NCBI GenBank assembly: GCA_038363925.1
Contig: JAQQWL010000006.1
Location: 2,088,501-2,152,500 of the forward strand
From: Apiospora phragmitis
Lineage: Eukaryota; Ascomycota; Sordariomycetes; Amphisphaeriales; Apiosporaceae
DNA length: 64,000 nt
Reading direction: 5' to 3'
Part shown: one piece after another, positions 18,325-28,916 of the stretch
How the letters are laid out: each line of letters begins with the position of its first letter
Numbering within the stretch: the stretch's first letter is position 1
Made by a program: the position numbers and the translations under genes
Notes under the pieces: generated by a model
Told to the model about the DNA's origin: nothing
What the model saw: only the letters and a program-made list of their open reading frames with translations
The model's database searches: none

Positions 18325-20139
18325 ATGGACCCAAGCCCAGACAGTCATGGGTTCTTCGAGGAAGGCTTTCCCCGGCAGCTCCCGGAAAACTGTGTGGAGT
18401 ACATCCTTTTCATCATCGACGACCAGATGGAGGCACGTCGAAAACTGTCCGCTTTGGAGAATGTTCGCAAAAGGGCTATGCAGCTAGCAGATTCGCTCAC
18501 CAAGGACTACATCTGGCAACGGGACGCACTCAACTTGGAAGTCAAGAATGACCGTGGGCTTGTTTATCTGTATGGTAGCTCGTACTATGGCGATTCTATA
18601 GAGGACGAGTGGCTCATCGTGTATCTTCTCCGCGAGCTCAGCAAAACTTCCAGTGATCTCTGGATTCGGGTGTTTGATAGTGATGGCGAGTTTCTCCTAG
18701 TTGAAGCTGCCAACGTCTTGCCACCCTGGCTGAGCCCAGAGATTGATACTAACCGAGTATGGATCAACCAGGGGAGTCTCCATCTGATCCCCCTGCAAGA
18801 CAAGACAGACAAGAGGCCGCTGACCTTGGATCAAGCGGTTGGCCATATCAGGGGGGACACAGAGTCTCTCGTCCAATCATCTCTTGTGGAAGCCGAGGCT
18901 TTCTACCGGCTAGAGAAGTATCCTAGGCAGATACAAGATGCCATGCACCATTCTTTGACGACTATCCCTCGGAAACTCGCCTATATCCTACATGAGAAAC
19001 CAGCCGCCATCGCACCCGCCGTTGAAGCATTCTATCTCAGAGACCCTATCTCTATGAAATCCCTCCTATCTACATCCGGAAAGCTGAGCTTTCCTCCCCA
19101 GGACCTCGTGACTTTGAGCGTCAAGTACACCAAGGTTCTGTTTGCACAGTTAAAGTCCCAGAACTTCACGCCACCACCAGCATGGACTGGTATTGTGGAA
19201 AGGGCCGAGAGTGAGACAGGATCGGCTGAAGCCACCCAAGGAAACCTCGCCAGACTGGAAGTAGGCATGAAGCTGACTTGTGGTTTCGAGATGCTCGCGT
19301 CCAATGCCGCGACTAAGAATAACCGAACCGCTCGAGAAGTGGCGATTCTTCTAGAGGACCTGGAGGAGGATGGCGATCAGGCACTTCCAAGCGATGCCGT
19401 CATTCAGTCTTGGCCTGGAGTGAAGCAGGATGACGATGAGTCTTGGATGGATATCAACTACGAAGAGTTCGAGAAAGCCCTCGATGGCAAGGGCGATACT
19501 GAAAAGGGGGAGACGGGCGGATTTGGAGATGCCTCGGCACAGGCAGATCTACAAAAAATGGTAGCGCGCTTTGAGTCCTTCCTCAATGACGAGACTGCTG
19601 GGTTTGAAGGGGCAGAGCTTGACGATATGGATGAAGACGATGATCTGTCGGACTACGAGGAGGACAGCGAGGATGAAGACAAGGATGTCAGTTTTGACGA
19701 GGAGCAGTTTGCCAAGATGATGCGAGAAATGATGGGCATGCCAGCTGAAGAATCAACCCATTCGAAGCAGTCCCGTCGGAAAACGGACAAGACGAGCCAG
19801 GTTGAGGAAGTAGATGAGCAAGAAGACGAGGAGATCAGGCGACTAGCGACTCAGATGGAAGCCGAGTTGAACTCTCATGGGGCTCTGCAGCTAGATCCGA
19901 CACCGAGGAAGCTGAAGGCGCTGAAGCAAAAGGGTGCGGCCGACGAAAAAGGCAAGGAGGTACAGCACGATGATGACACCGAAGAAAGCGACGATGAGGA
20001 GGAAGTCGATATAGATTACAACCTCGCCAAGAATCTGCTCGAGAGTTTCAAGAGCCAGGGAGGCACAGCAGGGCCTGTTGGCAACATGCTAGGCATGTTC
20101 GGCATGAAGCTGCCGCCAGATGACGAGAACGCAGAATGA
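18325..20139 (+). CDS. ECD/SGT1-family protein (ecdysoneless homologue), 604 aa
   Basis: Member of the SGT1/ecdysoneless family. In other organisms these proteins are linked to pre-mRNA splicing (Prp8 association), cell-cycle progression and transcription. This is a different family from the Skp1-binding co-chaperone that is also called Sgt1. It is one uninterrupted frame from the ATG at 18325. The N-terminal third has the conserved ECD core: PENCVEYILFII, an IEDEWLIVYLLRELS block, then LWIRVFDSDGEFLLVEAA. The WSPEI-like and HLIPL blocks follow (about 130-152). The last 200 residues are strongly acidic with Asp/Glu runs and a short conserved end. Length is as expected. The function in this organism is inferred. 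Confidence 0.88.
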   Translation: MDPSPDSHGFFEEGFPRQLPENCVEYILFIIDDQMEARRKLSALENVRKRAMQLADSLTKDYIWQRDALNLEVKNDRGLVYLYGSSYYGDSIEDEWLIVYLLRELSKTSSDLWIRVFDSDGEFLLVEAANVLPPWLSPEIDTNRVWINQGSLHLIPLQDKTDKRPLTLDQAVGHIRGDTESLVQSSLVEAEAFYRLEKYPRQIQDAMHHSLTTIPRKLAYILHEKPAAIAPAVEAFYLRDPISMKSLLSTSGKLSFPPQDLVTLSVKYTKVLFAQLKSQNFTPPPAWTGIVERAESETGSAEATQGNLARLEVGMKLTCGFEMLASNAATKNNRTAREVAILLEDLEEDGDQALPSDAVIQSWPGVKQDDDESWMDINYEEFEKALDGKGDTEKGETGGFGDASAQADLQKMVARFESFLNDETAGFEGAELDDMDEDDDLSDYEEDSEDEDKDVSFDEEQFAKMMREMMGMPAEESTHSKQSRRKTDKTSQVEEVDEQEDEEIRRLATQMEAELNSHGALQLDPTPRKLKALKQKGAADEKGKEVQHDDDTEESDDEEEVDIDYNLAKNLLESFKSQGGTAGPVGNMLGMFGMKLPPDDENAE

Positions 20140-24297: not shown

Positions 24298-25225
24298 TCA
24301 TCGTGGTCTGGTCTCTTCTTTTCTTCCTCTCGAAATGTTGCTGGGACTTTGCGCCCTTTGCCTTGTTTCCTTGACTAGCCCAGTCTTAATGTCGCAAATT
24401 GTCTGCCCCCCCTTCGGTCGCGTCTGAGGGAATTGTCGTTGTCGTTCAGTAGCCCGCCAGCTTGGGAGATGGGGCGAATTGCGGATGTCGGCGTAGGCGA
24501 TGTTCGAAATCTTTTGAATTGAAAGCGCCAGCTATTTTGACGGGTTGCAGGGGTGGGTTTTGTTAGCCAGTCAAGTTTCGCCCGGATTAAATTCTGCGCT
24601 AGTGCCCGGTCCGGGTGCTGGCATCTCCACCGTCCCCGGGAACTGGACTTCATATCTCCACTAACCCCCCCTATCGCTACGGGCGAAGGAAGCTCACGCC
24701 CACTTGCAATTGATTCTCGTGTCCATTGGAGTGTCGTTCGCTGGATAGTGGTGCAGTTCTACCGTAATCCCGGCGGCGACGGAGAGCTGTCATCACACCT
24801 CCTGTAATGTGCCTAGGATATCCTTTGGTAATATGATCTAGGAGTTCGTACATCTCACCTCAGCCTAGCCATTGGTCTGGCTTGGAGCAGCTCGAAGTGA
24901 GTGGCCTGCAGTCCTATATTTGGCACGCCATTATAGATCCTCATGAAGGTTGGGGGCTTGTTGGAAAGTCAAGATTGCTGTAGAAAGCTACGTACAACAC
25001 CTCGTGGTCGATATTACTGGTGCTGATTTCCATCTTCCCACATCGTGGCTGGCCGTAGCGACAGCAAATAGTTGCATCACCAACTTTTTAGTAGCATGGA
25101 GAACCAGTGTGGTTAGTCCGTGGTGGTATTAACGTGATATCTACGGAAATACACACAGCGCTGGCCAAAGAAGGCAAGCAAAAAGAAACGCGTTGAAGAT
25201 CAAGTAGGGCCAAAAAAGGAAAAGG
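24298..25225. other. Intergenic stretch
   Basis: About 930 bp with no supported gene. It contains the promoter of mrps17 on its left side. Confidence 0.5.
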
Positions 25226-25233
25226 AAAAAAAA
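25226..25233 (-). terminator. Pol III-type terminator behind the tRNA
   Basis: Eight A residues on the plus strand, that is T8 on the minus strand, 17 nt past the tRNA 3' end. T4 or longer runs end RNA polymerase III transcripts. Confidence 0.7.
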
Positions 25234-25249
25234 GATGATTATTGAATCT

Positions 25250-25380
25250 GGGCCAAGCTGGGATTCGAACTGGGAACCGAGAGTTAGTAGGTGCTCGTTT
25301 AGTTGTCGTCGGTGAGGATGACTTACCCCAGGACCTCTTCCACCCAAAGGAAGTACGCTATACCACTGCGCCACAAGGCC
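25250..25380 (-). tRNA. tRNA-Pro (anticodon UGG) interrupted in the T-arm by a 57-bp intron-like insert; possible pseudogene
   Basis: The minus strand folds as a cloverleaf: acceptor GGCCTTG (25380 on), D-stem GCGC/GCGT, and anticodon stem CTTCC/GGAAG enclosing TTTGGGT (anticodon TGG, proline). The variable loop is AGGTC. The T-stem's first strand CTGGG ends at 25327; its loop and second strand TTCGAAT-CCCAG resume at 25269. Removing 25270-25326 gives a perfect 5-bp T-stem. The A box (TGGCGCAGTGG) is intact. The B box is nearly intact because the insert ends in AG. There is no intron at the usual 37/38 site. The acceptor 3' strand is CTTGGCC, which leaves two adjacent U-U mismatches (5-68, 6-67), so the gene may be decayed. 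Discriminator is C. Confidence 0.72.
25270..25326 (-). other. 57-bp spliceosomal-type intron inside the tRNA T-arm (between tRNA positions 53 and 54)
   Basis: Begins GTAAGT, contains TACTAAC followed 13 nt later by the terminal CAG, and lies exactly between T-stem base 53 and T-loop base 54. Its size and signals match the protein-gene introns in this window. Eukaryotic nuclear tRNA introns are otherwise confined to 37/38 and do not carry spliceosomal signals. Confidence 0.75.
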
Positions 25381-27206
25381 GAGTGTACTCATTGTCGTTG
25401 GGATGATCACCTGCTATCAGTTTCCTTGAGGACTCGTGGAAGGAATTGGTCGGCCATGGATTCAGTATGGCGACTACTGTGGGCATGGTCTGGCACAGTG
25501 AATCACCCACGCTCACGAGGGTGTCAACTAGGGGTATGCTCAGGCACAGTGGGCCTGTGTATGTCACTACGTATCCCAGCGGCTTTCGCTAGGAGGGCAT
25601 GAAACGTCTTTCAAGCATGCCATATTCCAGGACGGCTGGGAAAACCCCCTCTGTAGGCTGTAAGAATGGAAACCCACTCCTCTGATACCAGGCATTGCTT
25701 TAAGGGGCAACCTGTGCCAGTGTAGGCGAACAATAAATATTACACCAGGCGTCTACATGATCAATTCTGTAACTCCATTCCTAATTCGCCATAAAGAAGT
25801 TTAGCTCACGGCCTTCTCATCTTACCATAAACATGGCCAAGAGGAACAGGTCTGTACCAAGTCAATAAAGACGCTAAGTCATATCTAATCCACATACACA
25901 GGGGATTATGGCTGAAAGCAATGTGGTCTATGAATTCATTTGATCCATATCACAATGCCCGATACACCCCTATTGGGACTTAGATTTTGCATGACTGACC
26001 ACATGGCCGGCGCCATGTGGAATCGTCCCATTGGATCACTCTCACATCGAGCTTTCCTCGTTTGCAAAGATGGAACTACGGGTGTCGAAGCCTAAACCCA
26101 TTTATATGTATTGGCAATATCGCGCTTATTAGGATTTGAATGTGAAGTTACCAAGCAAGCCATTGGGGTAGAAAGCAGATGATTAGGCAGAGCAGCAACC
26201 AGCGAACACTCATTCCGGCAGCCCTATTGACGGATGATAACAATTGTTGTCTTTCTCTCCGCTAGATACCTATCTACATGAAGGACTGTGAGTTCTGTGA
26301 GCTTCTGCTAAGTGTGACCCCAAACCTCGTGATATGGCTAGATGACATCCAACCGGATCCCCAGGTACTGTTTTTGAGGCAGCTATGTATGTACGACATC
26401 GCCCCAACCACGAAACGGGTGGCAATGCCCCCTATATATCGAGACAGCTCATGTTACGTTACTTACCGACCTCCCACCAGAGTCTTCTGAACTGGGAACA
26501 TGAACTACCTTGGGATGACCAGGATACGTCAATGCGGGGGGTTGGAAAAATGTGGGCGGGAGGCCGCGGCTGTTTCTTTCTGCTAGACGAGACGAATTCG
26601 ACCCTGCATGCGTATGAAGTCATGTGAGCGAAAGATATCACGGAGTCCCTGGTTTGGTATGGAACGACTTCCCAGAGGAATGGGTTGAAAGGTCAAACTC
26701 AAGCAAGATGTCAAAATATGTGGTCATTGAGCTGGTAGACATAAACATCGTAACATAGCAAGATGTTGACCTGCACGTGATAAGCATTCGAGCTATATAC
26801 GGAACTCATACAAAACTTGGAAACCGTTCACCTGCAAAATTCGATCGAAACCGCCCAAACCCGTAGTAGAGTAGAAAAGTATGAGTATCTTCAAAGAACA
26901 CGCTTCCGTAATCCAACCAACCCATCATGCAAGCCAATCCAAAGAAAAATGGCATCATCCATACCAATTGCTCTGCTTATGCTTCATAATAATTCTTTTT
27001 CTCGTCAAAGTGCGTTCTGTGTCACCGGGTTCATCCATCACCGTTGAGCTTGAATATCTCAAGAGTAGGATTCTGTCGCCTTTTACCATTCAGATGAATG
27101 CTGGGGAGGGGAGTTTTACAACTCATCAGACTTGAGATATAATCTCGTCGTGTATCCATTCTTTGACAGTGAGTCATGCTGCTCCCCCCCCCCCTATCTA
27201 ACTCCC
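25381..27206. other. Gene-poor stretch
   Basis: About 1.8 kb with short frames only, none with domains or convincing splice extensions. An 11-base C run lies at 27184-27194. Confidence 0.5.
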
Positions 27207-28916
27207 TTAGCGGCGGGATGATCTGCGGCTCCTGTTGCCGCCTACACAGCTGATGCTGTCATCAGGCGCGACACTATCTTTGTCGTCGTCCCAGTCGGCA
27301 AGGCTGCCGCCCACCTCGCTTTCCGGCAGTGGCACCATATTGGCCTTGGCATACATGGTGGCCCTACCGCCGGTAGGCATGCGTTTCACCCCGTTGTTCA
27401 TCCCGAGGCGCTCCCCGAGGGTTTTCGCCATCGCGGAGACTGATTGCCGGGGAGGAGGCGCTCTGGATCTTACCGGAATGGACATGGTCTCGGCCTTGGC
27501 AAGTGTCGGCGGAGCCCGCATGGTGGCCTCCGATCGGTCTGTCCGCTCTGGTTTCCTTGTCCGATGGGTGCGGGATGAAACATACGACTCGAGTTCCGGC
27601 TCCGGGCGTCGCACCGACCGTACACTCGCATGCCTTGAAGGTTTCGACGTTGTGGCACGACTTTTGGCGTCCATTTCCGGCATGAAGTCGTTCGCGTATC
27701 TGGAGCCGGCCTGGCTGCGATACTCAGTCTCCATGAGTAGCTTCGGTGCGCCGGCAAGCTTGGATCCAGAGGTGCTCCTGTGCTCCGCCTGCGCAATCAT
27801 AAGTGGTTTGCGGGAGGATCCGGCCTCGCTTCGGGTCCGATCCCGCCCAGTGGTACTATGACGGGTAGAATGGCGACTCGCACGGTCATCAAGCTCCTCG
27901 ACCTCCCTCGACCGGTCAGGCGCTTGAGAATAGCGAGCTACATAGCTGGGAGGCGGATAGTGGCGGGCTCCTTTGGCGGGGGCATAATCTTCAGGATAAC
28001 GAATCTTTTCCACGGTCCGTTCGACCTCCACATAGCGCTGGTGCTGATTGGGGTAGGGATCCGGCATGGTGGAGCGCCTCTGCATGACGGGAGGCTCGAA
28101 CTCCTGGCGAGGAGCACGTTCACGCTCGTTCCTCGTGTGCATGTATGTGAGAGCGCCACCAATTGCGGCGCCGGCAGCAACTGCTCCAAGCACAGTGCCA
28201 ACAATGGAACCAGTTCCGAAGCCGCTAGTATTCTCCCGGGGAGAAGGAGTGGTCTCGAACGTCGACGTCGTCACGCTGCGTCGAAATATAGTCCACGGCT
28301 CGTCTTCAGCAGCAGCAGGAGCAGCAGCAGGAGCAGAAGCAACGGTCCGCGCTGGAGGTCGAGCAATAGCGTTGGCTGATCCAGCCGGAGCTCTGGAGCC
28401 GGCAACAGAACGAGCAGGCTGGGAGGTGGCCACTTCAAGATTCCAGTCCAGAATGCGGCTTACTTCGCGGTTGGTAGATTGAGTCTGTCTCACGGTTGAA
28501 CCATTGTGGTGAGAGGAATAACATTTGGGAGGAAGATAGACGACCTCCATTATATTCCCGTCGAGGTCGGTGATTCTGGCTCGACTCTCGCCACCGGAAG
28601 ATGGGTCGGCGGGACGTGCGTGGCGGAGAAAATGGCTGTCACCGCCGATCTTTGTGAGGTCAGGGTGCGCCCGCAGCCCTGCGGCGTGGAAGTCAGACAC
28701 GACCGAAGGCGAAGAGGCAGAAATGACAAAGCGGGCGCGTTTAAGCGGCGAATTGTCGTCACTCTCAGCTCTGACCTCAAATATGGGGTCGCCACCCGCA
28801 CCGTATATAATACGAGAAGAGTCGGCGCTCAGGAAGCGGATCCCAAGAGGGTGGGTGACGGCTGAATAAAACGACGCAGACTCAGGCAGACGAGTGACTT
28901 CGGTGTAGGGCCGCAT
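27207..28916 (-). CDS. VOC/glyoxalase-fold domain protein with a transmembrane segment and long disordered tail (569 aa)
   Basis: Single-exon frame; the ATG at 28916 starts the recognisable domain, and the same frame runs 50 codons further upstream without support. Residues 1-128 resemble fungal glyoxalase/VOC domains: an N-terminal RLPESASFYSAVTHPLGIRFL half, then HFLRHARP, and DLDGNIMEVVYLPP at the end of the second half. Family metal ligands are usually His and Glu; H96 and E124 are candidates. A Gly/Ala-rich hydrophobic segment at about 236-258 looks like a membrane span. It is followed by about 300 residues rich in Ser, Arg and Pro, as in cytoplasmic disordered tails. There is no signal peptide. 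The function is unknown; the domain-plus-membrane combination is inferred from sequence alone. Confidence 0.75.
   Translation of the reverse strand: MRPYTEVTRLPESASFYSAVTHPLGIRFLSADSSRIIYGAGGDPIFEVRAESDDNSPLKRARFVISASSPSVVSDFHAAGLRAHPDLTKIGGDSHFLRHARPADPSSGGESRARITDLDGNIMEVVYLPPKCYSSHHNGSTVRQTQSTNREVSRILDWNLEVATSQPARSVAGSRAPAGSANAIARPPARTVASAPAAAPAAAEDEPWTIFRRSVTTSTFETTPSPRENTSGFGTGSIVGTVLGAVAAGAAIGGALTYMHTRNERERAPRQEFEPPVMQRRSTMPDPYPNQHQRYVEVERTVEKIRYPEDYAPAKGARHYPPPSYVARYSQAPDRSREVEELDDRASRHSTRHSTTGRDRTRSEAGSSRKPLMIAQAEHRSTSGSKLAGAPKLLMETEYRSQAGSRYANDFMPEMDAKSRATTSKPSRHASVRSVRRPEPELESYVSSRTHRTRKPERTDRSEATMRAPPTLAKAETMSIPVRSRAPPPRQSVSAMAKTLGERLGMNNGVKRMPTGGRATMYAKANMVPLPESEVGGSLADWDDDKDSVAPDDSISCVGGNRSRRSSRR

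Follow-up and report, generated by a model that had tools for sequence, protein, structure and literature searches.

The spliceosome and the tRNA splicing endonuclease are taught as separate systems that act on separate substrates. In fungi, the introns of U3 genes are normal spliceosomal introns, by 2017 no small structured RNA besides U3 and U6 was known to be frequently split by an intron, and U3 paralogues within one species may differ in whether they carry one, as set out in passages of PMC5832005. Introns in the T-arm of tRNAs have also been described: according to excerpts of the respective reports, the nuclear tRNA-Ile(UAU) of C. merolae has an intron at position 53/54 with BHB motifs (PMC9602550), and nucleomorph tRNAs have T-arm introns of 3 nt (PMC4090602). 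Both cases run counter to the assumption, made in an earlier note on the locus studied here, that T-arm introns are known only from archaea. Passages of a review of permuted tRNAs (PMC3978253) describe ectopic tRNA introns that are either BHB-type or, in a nucleomorph, lack a defined BHB. In searches of open-licence literature, we found no report of a spliceosomal intron in a tRNA gene, which by itself does not prove that none exists.

Here, we analyzed a stretch of 64,000 nucleotides of Apiospora phragmitis DNA (the window), which belongs to contig 6 of a genome of 52.67 Mb in 19 contigs. The genome has at least four tRNA genes with an mRNA-type insert at exactly position 53/54, namely the tRNA-Pro(UGG) gene of the window, one tRNA-Pro(AGG) gene (L090) and two tRNA-Arg(UCG) genes (L094 and L098). 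Like fungal U6 and U3 genes, they combine a short intron and mRNA-type splice and branch sites with a small structured RNA; they differ in that the host RNA is a tRNA, that the insert lies directly next to the B box of the Pol III promoter and that three of the genes have a 37/38 intron as well. With C. merolae they share the nuclear tRNA, position 53/54 and the presence of more than one intron per gene. However, the C. merolae introns have hBHBh' motifs, as described in parts of PMC9602550, whereas the Apiospora inserts have splice and branch sites and no strict BHB in a scan of low power. The nucleomorph introns of Guillardia theta resemble the inserts in their non-canonical positions, including the T-arm (excerpts of PMC4090602), but are 3–24 nt long, compared with 54–57 nt here, and those excerpts describe them without mention of spliceosomal motifs. 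Canonical 37/38 introns, which are present in L090, L094 and L098 besides the T-arm insert, follow other rules of position and sequence.

The interrupted tRNA-Pro(UGG) gene

The earlier note had placed a tRNA-Pro with a T-arm insert at 25250–25380; sequence and coordinates were right, and the gene lies on the minus strand (Table 1). The Rfam model RF00005 matched it with 32.5 bits, compared with a gathering score of 29 (E-value 0.0067 for the whole window and 3.5e-05 for a 331-base stretch), and its alignment puts the extra bases in the T-loop. ARAGORN called no tRNA in the unspliced gene, with introns allowed or not, and called a tRNA-Pro(tgg) of 74 nt once 25270–25326 was omitted. The anticodon arm (CTTCC TTTGGGT GGAAG) contains the anticodon UGG (Pro), a D-arm is present, the variable region reads AGGTC, the T-stem CTGGG/CCCAG encloses the T-loop TTCGAAT, and base 73 is C. 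An intron at 37/38 is absent from this gene. The insert, GTAAGT and CAG separated by 48 nt, stands between G53 and T54, and 14 nt follow the branch A of its TACTAAC. Its length of 57 nt, its three motifs and its exact position had all been given by the note; they can be read directly in the sequence, and such an insert recurs in four genes.

The complete cloverleaf that had been claimed for the joined gene agrees with the ARAGORN call, but not with the acceptor stem (GGCCTTG/CTTGGCC), in which five of seven pairs are standard and two adjacent ones are U-U mismatches. Two such mismatches are unusual in a working tRNA. The window copy may be decaying, given these mismatches, and because of them it is the least secure of the four T-arm genes. 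When the insert and the spliced tRNA were each searched against the genome at the DNA level, the window itself was the sole match. The gene sits in a stretch (24758–27207) without a listed stop-to-stop ORF of at least 100 aa. Elsewhere in the window, an uninterrupted ORF on the plus strand (18325–20136) encodes a PF07093 (SGT1/Ecdysoneless family) protein that is 90% identical to one of Apiospora rasikravindrae; the next best named matches of this product are also from Apiospora.

Table 1. Features of the interrupted tRNA-Pro(UGG) gene (positions within the window)
Feature	Position	Strand	Basis
tRNA-Pro(UGG) gene, T-arm interrupted	25250..25380	-	RF00005, 32.5 bits; ARAGORN after omission of the insert
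5' exon, tRNA bases 1–53: acceptor 5' strand, D-arm, anticodon arm (TTTGGGT), T-stem 5' strand CTGGG	25327..25380	-	
57-nt mRNA-type insert, GTAAGT...TACTAAC...CAG, between bases 53/54	25270..25326	-	one genome match
5' splice-site-like GTAAGT	25321..25326	-	direct reading
Branch-site-like TACTAAC	25283..25289	-	direct reading
3' splice-site-like CAG	25270..25272	-	direct reading
3' exon, tRNA bases 54–73: TTCGAAT, CCCAG, CTTGGCC, C73	25250..25269	-	
A-box region TGGCGCAGTGGTA, Pol III internal promoter	25361..25373	-	general consensus
B-box-like AGTTCGAATCC, last two insert bases plus 3' exon	25261..25271	-	general consensus GGTTCGANTCC
Run of 8 T, possible Pol III terminator, from the 17th base past the tRNA 3' end	25226..25233	-	

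Recurrence of inserts at position 53/54

We searched the genome with two independent patterns, built on the 5' and the 3' side of the insert, respectively, and recovered the same four tRNAs with both. The 3'-side pattern (branch site, AG and T-loop) had 10 matches (reversed control: 7), comprising the four tRNAs and six sites without a recognizable tRNA. The 5'-side pattern, which did not include the branch site, had 13 matches (reversed control: 1), these being the same four tRNAs and nine further sites that include six AT-rich repeats. Six AT-rich loci (L104, L106, L108, L111, L112 and L113) share AGACCGTGGGGTACGT near position 1500, which is probably the terminal part of a degraded family of repeats. 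A further pattern, TTNGGGTNNNNNAGGTCC, matched the genome 7 times (reversed control: 8), with the window as the only recognizable tRNA, and ARAGORN called no tRNA in the loci of this pattern (L067–L073). A genome search with a tRNA-Pro sequence known from other species gave zero matches, as did a scan of viral contigs, in which few are expected, with one 3' junction pattern. Both the patterns and the joining test described below demanded splice motifs, so that tRNA inserts without them would be missed. RF00005 was scored for only 63 of 1715 first-look candidates, and the tRNA census of the genome is incomplete; inserts elsewhere in tRNAs, or without CTAAY or GTRNGT motifs, could have escaped.

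In L090, CCCGGG is followed by a 54-nt insert (GTAAGT...CTAAC...GCGCAG) and then by TTCGATCCCCGG, which places it where the window gene is interrupted; L094 and L098 have a 57-nt insert (GTATGT...TACTAAC...TTCAG) at 53/54. All four inserts have GTAWGT..CTAAC..CAG in common, and omitting them restored a full T-arm in each gene, upon which ARAGORN called Pro(tgg), Pro(agg) and, twice, Arg(tcg). Two isotypes and three isoacceptor families are represented; since the two Arg inserts are homologous, there are at most three independent cases. The unspliced genes expose a blind spot of annotation: ARAGORN recognized none of the four, whether introns were allowed or not, and Rfam gave 32.5, 30.4 and 30.4 bits for three of them and was silent on L090.

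As a control, we joined the flanks of all GTRNGT..CTRAY..YAG segments of 42–80 nt (n = 127) in a non-redundant set of 86 loci (the window among them; 256,326 bases in total), from which AT-rich and duplicate loci had been dropped. This produced five junction-spanning tRNAs (the window gene, L045, L090, L094 and L098), a count that is no genome rate, as many of the 86 loci were chosen for bearing tRNAs. Decoys with altered end dinucleotides produced none in the same loci (0/102 for TG..GA and 0/73 for GA..TG); a decoy with a scrambled branch motif produced 2 in 92, both of them the L094 and L098 inserts. A chance match is unlikely, because the insert recurs at the same site in four genes.

The fifth joined gene, L045 (193–322; 54.3 bits, a single genome match), is a tRNA with a 58-nt insert (GTAAGT...TTCTAATAA...TAG) in its anticodon loop. 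If the GT-AG segment is removed, the anticodon is UUC (Glu, and Glu(ttc) by ARAGORN); if a 37/38 intron is removed, it is GUA (Tyr). Base 73 is U, which we take to be a poor fit to either reading.

Splice signals, Pol III elements and insert-free paralogues

All five inserts, counting the four T-arm inserts and that of L045, whose limits are ambiguous, start with GT, end with AG and have GTAAGT or GTATGT as the 5' splice site. The branch site is CTAAC in the T-arm inserts and CTAAT in L045, with 10–14 nt following the branch A. Insert lengths of 54–58 nt compare with those of 16 predicted mRNA introns of the host, whose median is 61 nt; this set is noisy (8 introns by a strict search and 16 by a looser one, with two decoy runs giving 8 and 5). 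In their ends and in their splice and branch motifs the inserts resemble U2-type spliceosomal introns, and their length lies within the mRNA intron range of the host. The T-arm inserts lie at 53/54 instead of the canonical 37/38, a position at which the L045 insert could be read. Their removal leaves a full cloverleaf, with the two acceptor mismatches in the window copy. A strict BHB was found at the junctions of none of the five inserts, in a low-powered scan that two canonical 37/38 control introns failed too.

Other readings of the inserts were considered and rejected. An origin from repeats or from introners, mobile intron-creating elements with many similar copies, was dismissed, as the window insert has one genome match and the inserts show no clear similarity to one another, apart from that of L094 with L098. 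Matches of L090 and L098 to the U6 intron (p of 0.04 and 0.02 from 300 shuffles, uncorrected for 15 pairs) were not taken as homology. Scarcity of T-runs as a Pol III constraint was discarded: TTT is absent from all five inserts, but also from 7 of the 16 mRNA introns and from 57% of random 57-mers, and the comparison of inserts with predicted mRNA introns gave a Fisher p of 0.045, or 0.094 with the Arg pair counted once.

The A-box region is kept in the four T-arm genes, and a near-complete B box, AGTTCGANNCC, spans the 3' junction in all of them. The last two insert bases and the 3' exon together form AGTTCGAATCC, one base off the consensus GGTTCGANTCC; the corresponding stretch of L090, AGTTCGATCCC, is two bases off, one of which is also off in the insert-free paralogues. 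Runs of 4–8 T begin 5–22 nt downstream of the four T-arm genes and 4–13 nt downstream of six insert-free paralogues. Judged by these elements, Pol III transcription with the insert in place looks possible. U6 is itself a Pol III gene, and one U6 gene of this genome (L066 1501–1660; G000:C8:277890-278049) has a 61-nt GTAAGT...TACTAAC...CACACAG intron inside GAT/TAGCATGG. This intron contains a B-box-like GTTCAAATC. A second U6 match (L065 1501–1613; G000:C9:3094216-3094328; 64.1 bits) is uninterrupted and has diverged in places.

An 18-base piece of a typical tRNA-Pro 5' half, with up to 2 mismatches allowed, matched the genome 20 times (reversed control: 1), in 12 tRNA-Ala, six tRNA-Pro(AGG) and two sites without a recognizable tRNA. 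Five of the six Pro(AGG) copies found (L082, L083, L085, L086 and L091) are without a T-arm insert, and each of the five has a 37/38 intron. The 72 exon bases are identical across all six copies, L090 included, whereas the 37/38 intron and the flanks of L090 differ from those of its insert-free paralogues. For the five insert-free copies ARAGORN gives the names Ala(agc) or Glu(ttc), which arise from the choice of another intron position and were not adopted; these copies are Pro(AGG) in our reading, as they match L090 at all 72 exon bases and L090 itself is Pro(agg) by ARAGORN once joined.

For Arg(UCG), the DNA search found three copies, two with the insert and one (L043) without. Between L094 and L098, we counted no differences in 89 bases of exons and 37/38 intron, compared with 5 in the 57 bases of the insert (Fisher p = 0.008). 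None of the five falls in GTATGT, TACTAAC or CAG, which could be luck (these motifs occupy 16 of the 57 insert positions). The flanks of the two genes, compared without gaps, differ at 63 of 80 positions on the upstream side and at 59 of 84 on the downstream side, and about 15–20 bases just upstream are alike (TCATCCAACAAC). This pattern suggests that the Arg insert persisted while the tRNA stayed intact, and gene conversion could contribute to it. Function is not the sole possible source of the exon identity, which could also stem from a recent insertion or from gene conversion. The idea of a newly gained intron, raised when the window locus was singled out, was not borne out, as the two Arg genes share an insert whose copies differ at 5 of 57 positions.

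Interpretation and further tRNA loci

We consider it quite likely that the four are working nuclear tRNA genes of the Pol III type, each with a U2-type (GT-AG) intron at 53/54 that would be removed by the spliceosome. Such removal from Pol III precursors is what we infer from the Pol III signals, the U6 intron and the introns of fungal U3 and U6. Pol III would read the gene via its A box and B box, with the final AG of the intron replacing G52-G53, and GUAAGU and UACUAAC of the pre-tRNA would be recognized by U1 and U2, as those of pre-U6 would be. The spliceosome would then join GGG to UUCGA, and a co-occurring 37/38 intron would be taken out by the tRNA endonuclease and ligase.

It seems unlikely to us that the insert-bearing genes are instead pseudogenes, that is, spare tRNA copies with an intron or intron-like sequence that is never removed. 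The two acceptor mismatches of the window copy and the existence of insert-free Pro(AGG) and Arg(UCG) copies would fit pseudogenes, as would the D- and T-arm insertions of eukaryotic tRNA genes, most of which affect a single member of a large synonymous set and are presumed, in parts of the review PMC4090602, to mark pseudogenes. However, the exons of L090, L094 and L098 are unchanged on both sides of the insert while most flanks and the L090 37/38 intron have diverged, and none of the four genes has lost its splice motifs, despite the substitutions between the Arg inserts. Moreover, the insert is borne by the majority of the Arg(UCG) copies found (2/3), and T-runs and A-box regions are kept. 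Cleavage of the T-arm inserts by the tRNA splicing endonuclease via a BHB-like fold, with an incidental resemblance to splice sites, strikes us as very improbable. Three of the four genes do have a 37/38 intron as well, and the C. merolae tRNA-Ile(UAU) intron at the same position has BHB motifs, as given in parts of PMC9602550. Against this stand the GTAWGT, the CTAAC 10–14 nt before the end and the CAG of each T-arm insert, and the lack of a strict BHB in all five inserts, albeit in the scan that missed two canonical controls. We know of no requirement of the tRNA endonuclease for the GTAWGT, CTAAC and CAG motifs.

We would also be most surprised if the insert were spliced from a Pol II transcript, be it a non-coding RNA or an untranslated region that contains the tRNA, with a Pol III product that is no working tRNA. 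That splicing by the spliceosome is as a rule coupled to transcription by Pol II counts in favour of such a route, and in the ORF-poor surroundings of the window gene a non-coding transcript is conceivable. Yet all four genes are followed by a T-run, as are their insert-free paralogues, an mRNA-type intron is also found in U6, a Pol III gene by general knowledge, and a suitable Pol II transcript would be needed at four separate loci. Of the removal from a Pol II read-through transcript that the earlier note had proposed, the spliceosomal part agrees with the anatomy of the insert, but Pol II appears unneeded in view of the A box, the near-complete B box, the T-runs and the U6 intron. The core claim of the note stands and proved broader than stated; its interpretation is, overall, partly supported.

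Beyond removal by the spliceosome, we regard as evenly poised a wider reading, in which spliceosomal introns would on more than one occasion have entered tRNA genes transcribed by Pol III in this fungus, in each case at 53/54, where the 3' AG of the intron would replace the GG of the B box and leave the promoter working. The Pro(AGG) and Arg(UCG) pre-tRNAs would then be spliced by two unrelated machineries, the spliceosome and the tRNA endonuclease, and the class may be widespread and missed by the usual tRNA finders. Spliceosome-dependent pre-tRNAs, some of them needing both machineries, would tie translation capacity to mRNA splicing and would serve as natural reporters for the splicing of Pol III transcripts. 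The genes would also provide a clean setting for intron gain, since the target site is defined to single-base precision and the genome also contains paralogues without the insert.

Two further groups of tRNA loci were seen. The tRNA-Ala(AGC)-like loci (L036, L074–L081 and L092) have anticodon-loop introns that vary widely in length, from 10 to 41 nt according to ARAGORN, with one copy (L036/L079) without. Contig 19 (G000:C19, 224601 bases) has many organelle-type tRNA genes and resembles a mitochondrial genome, though a very large one.
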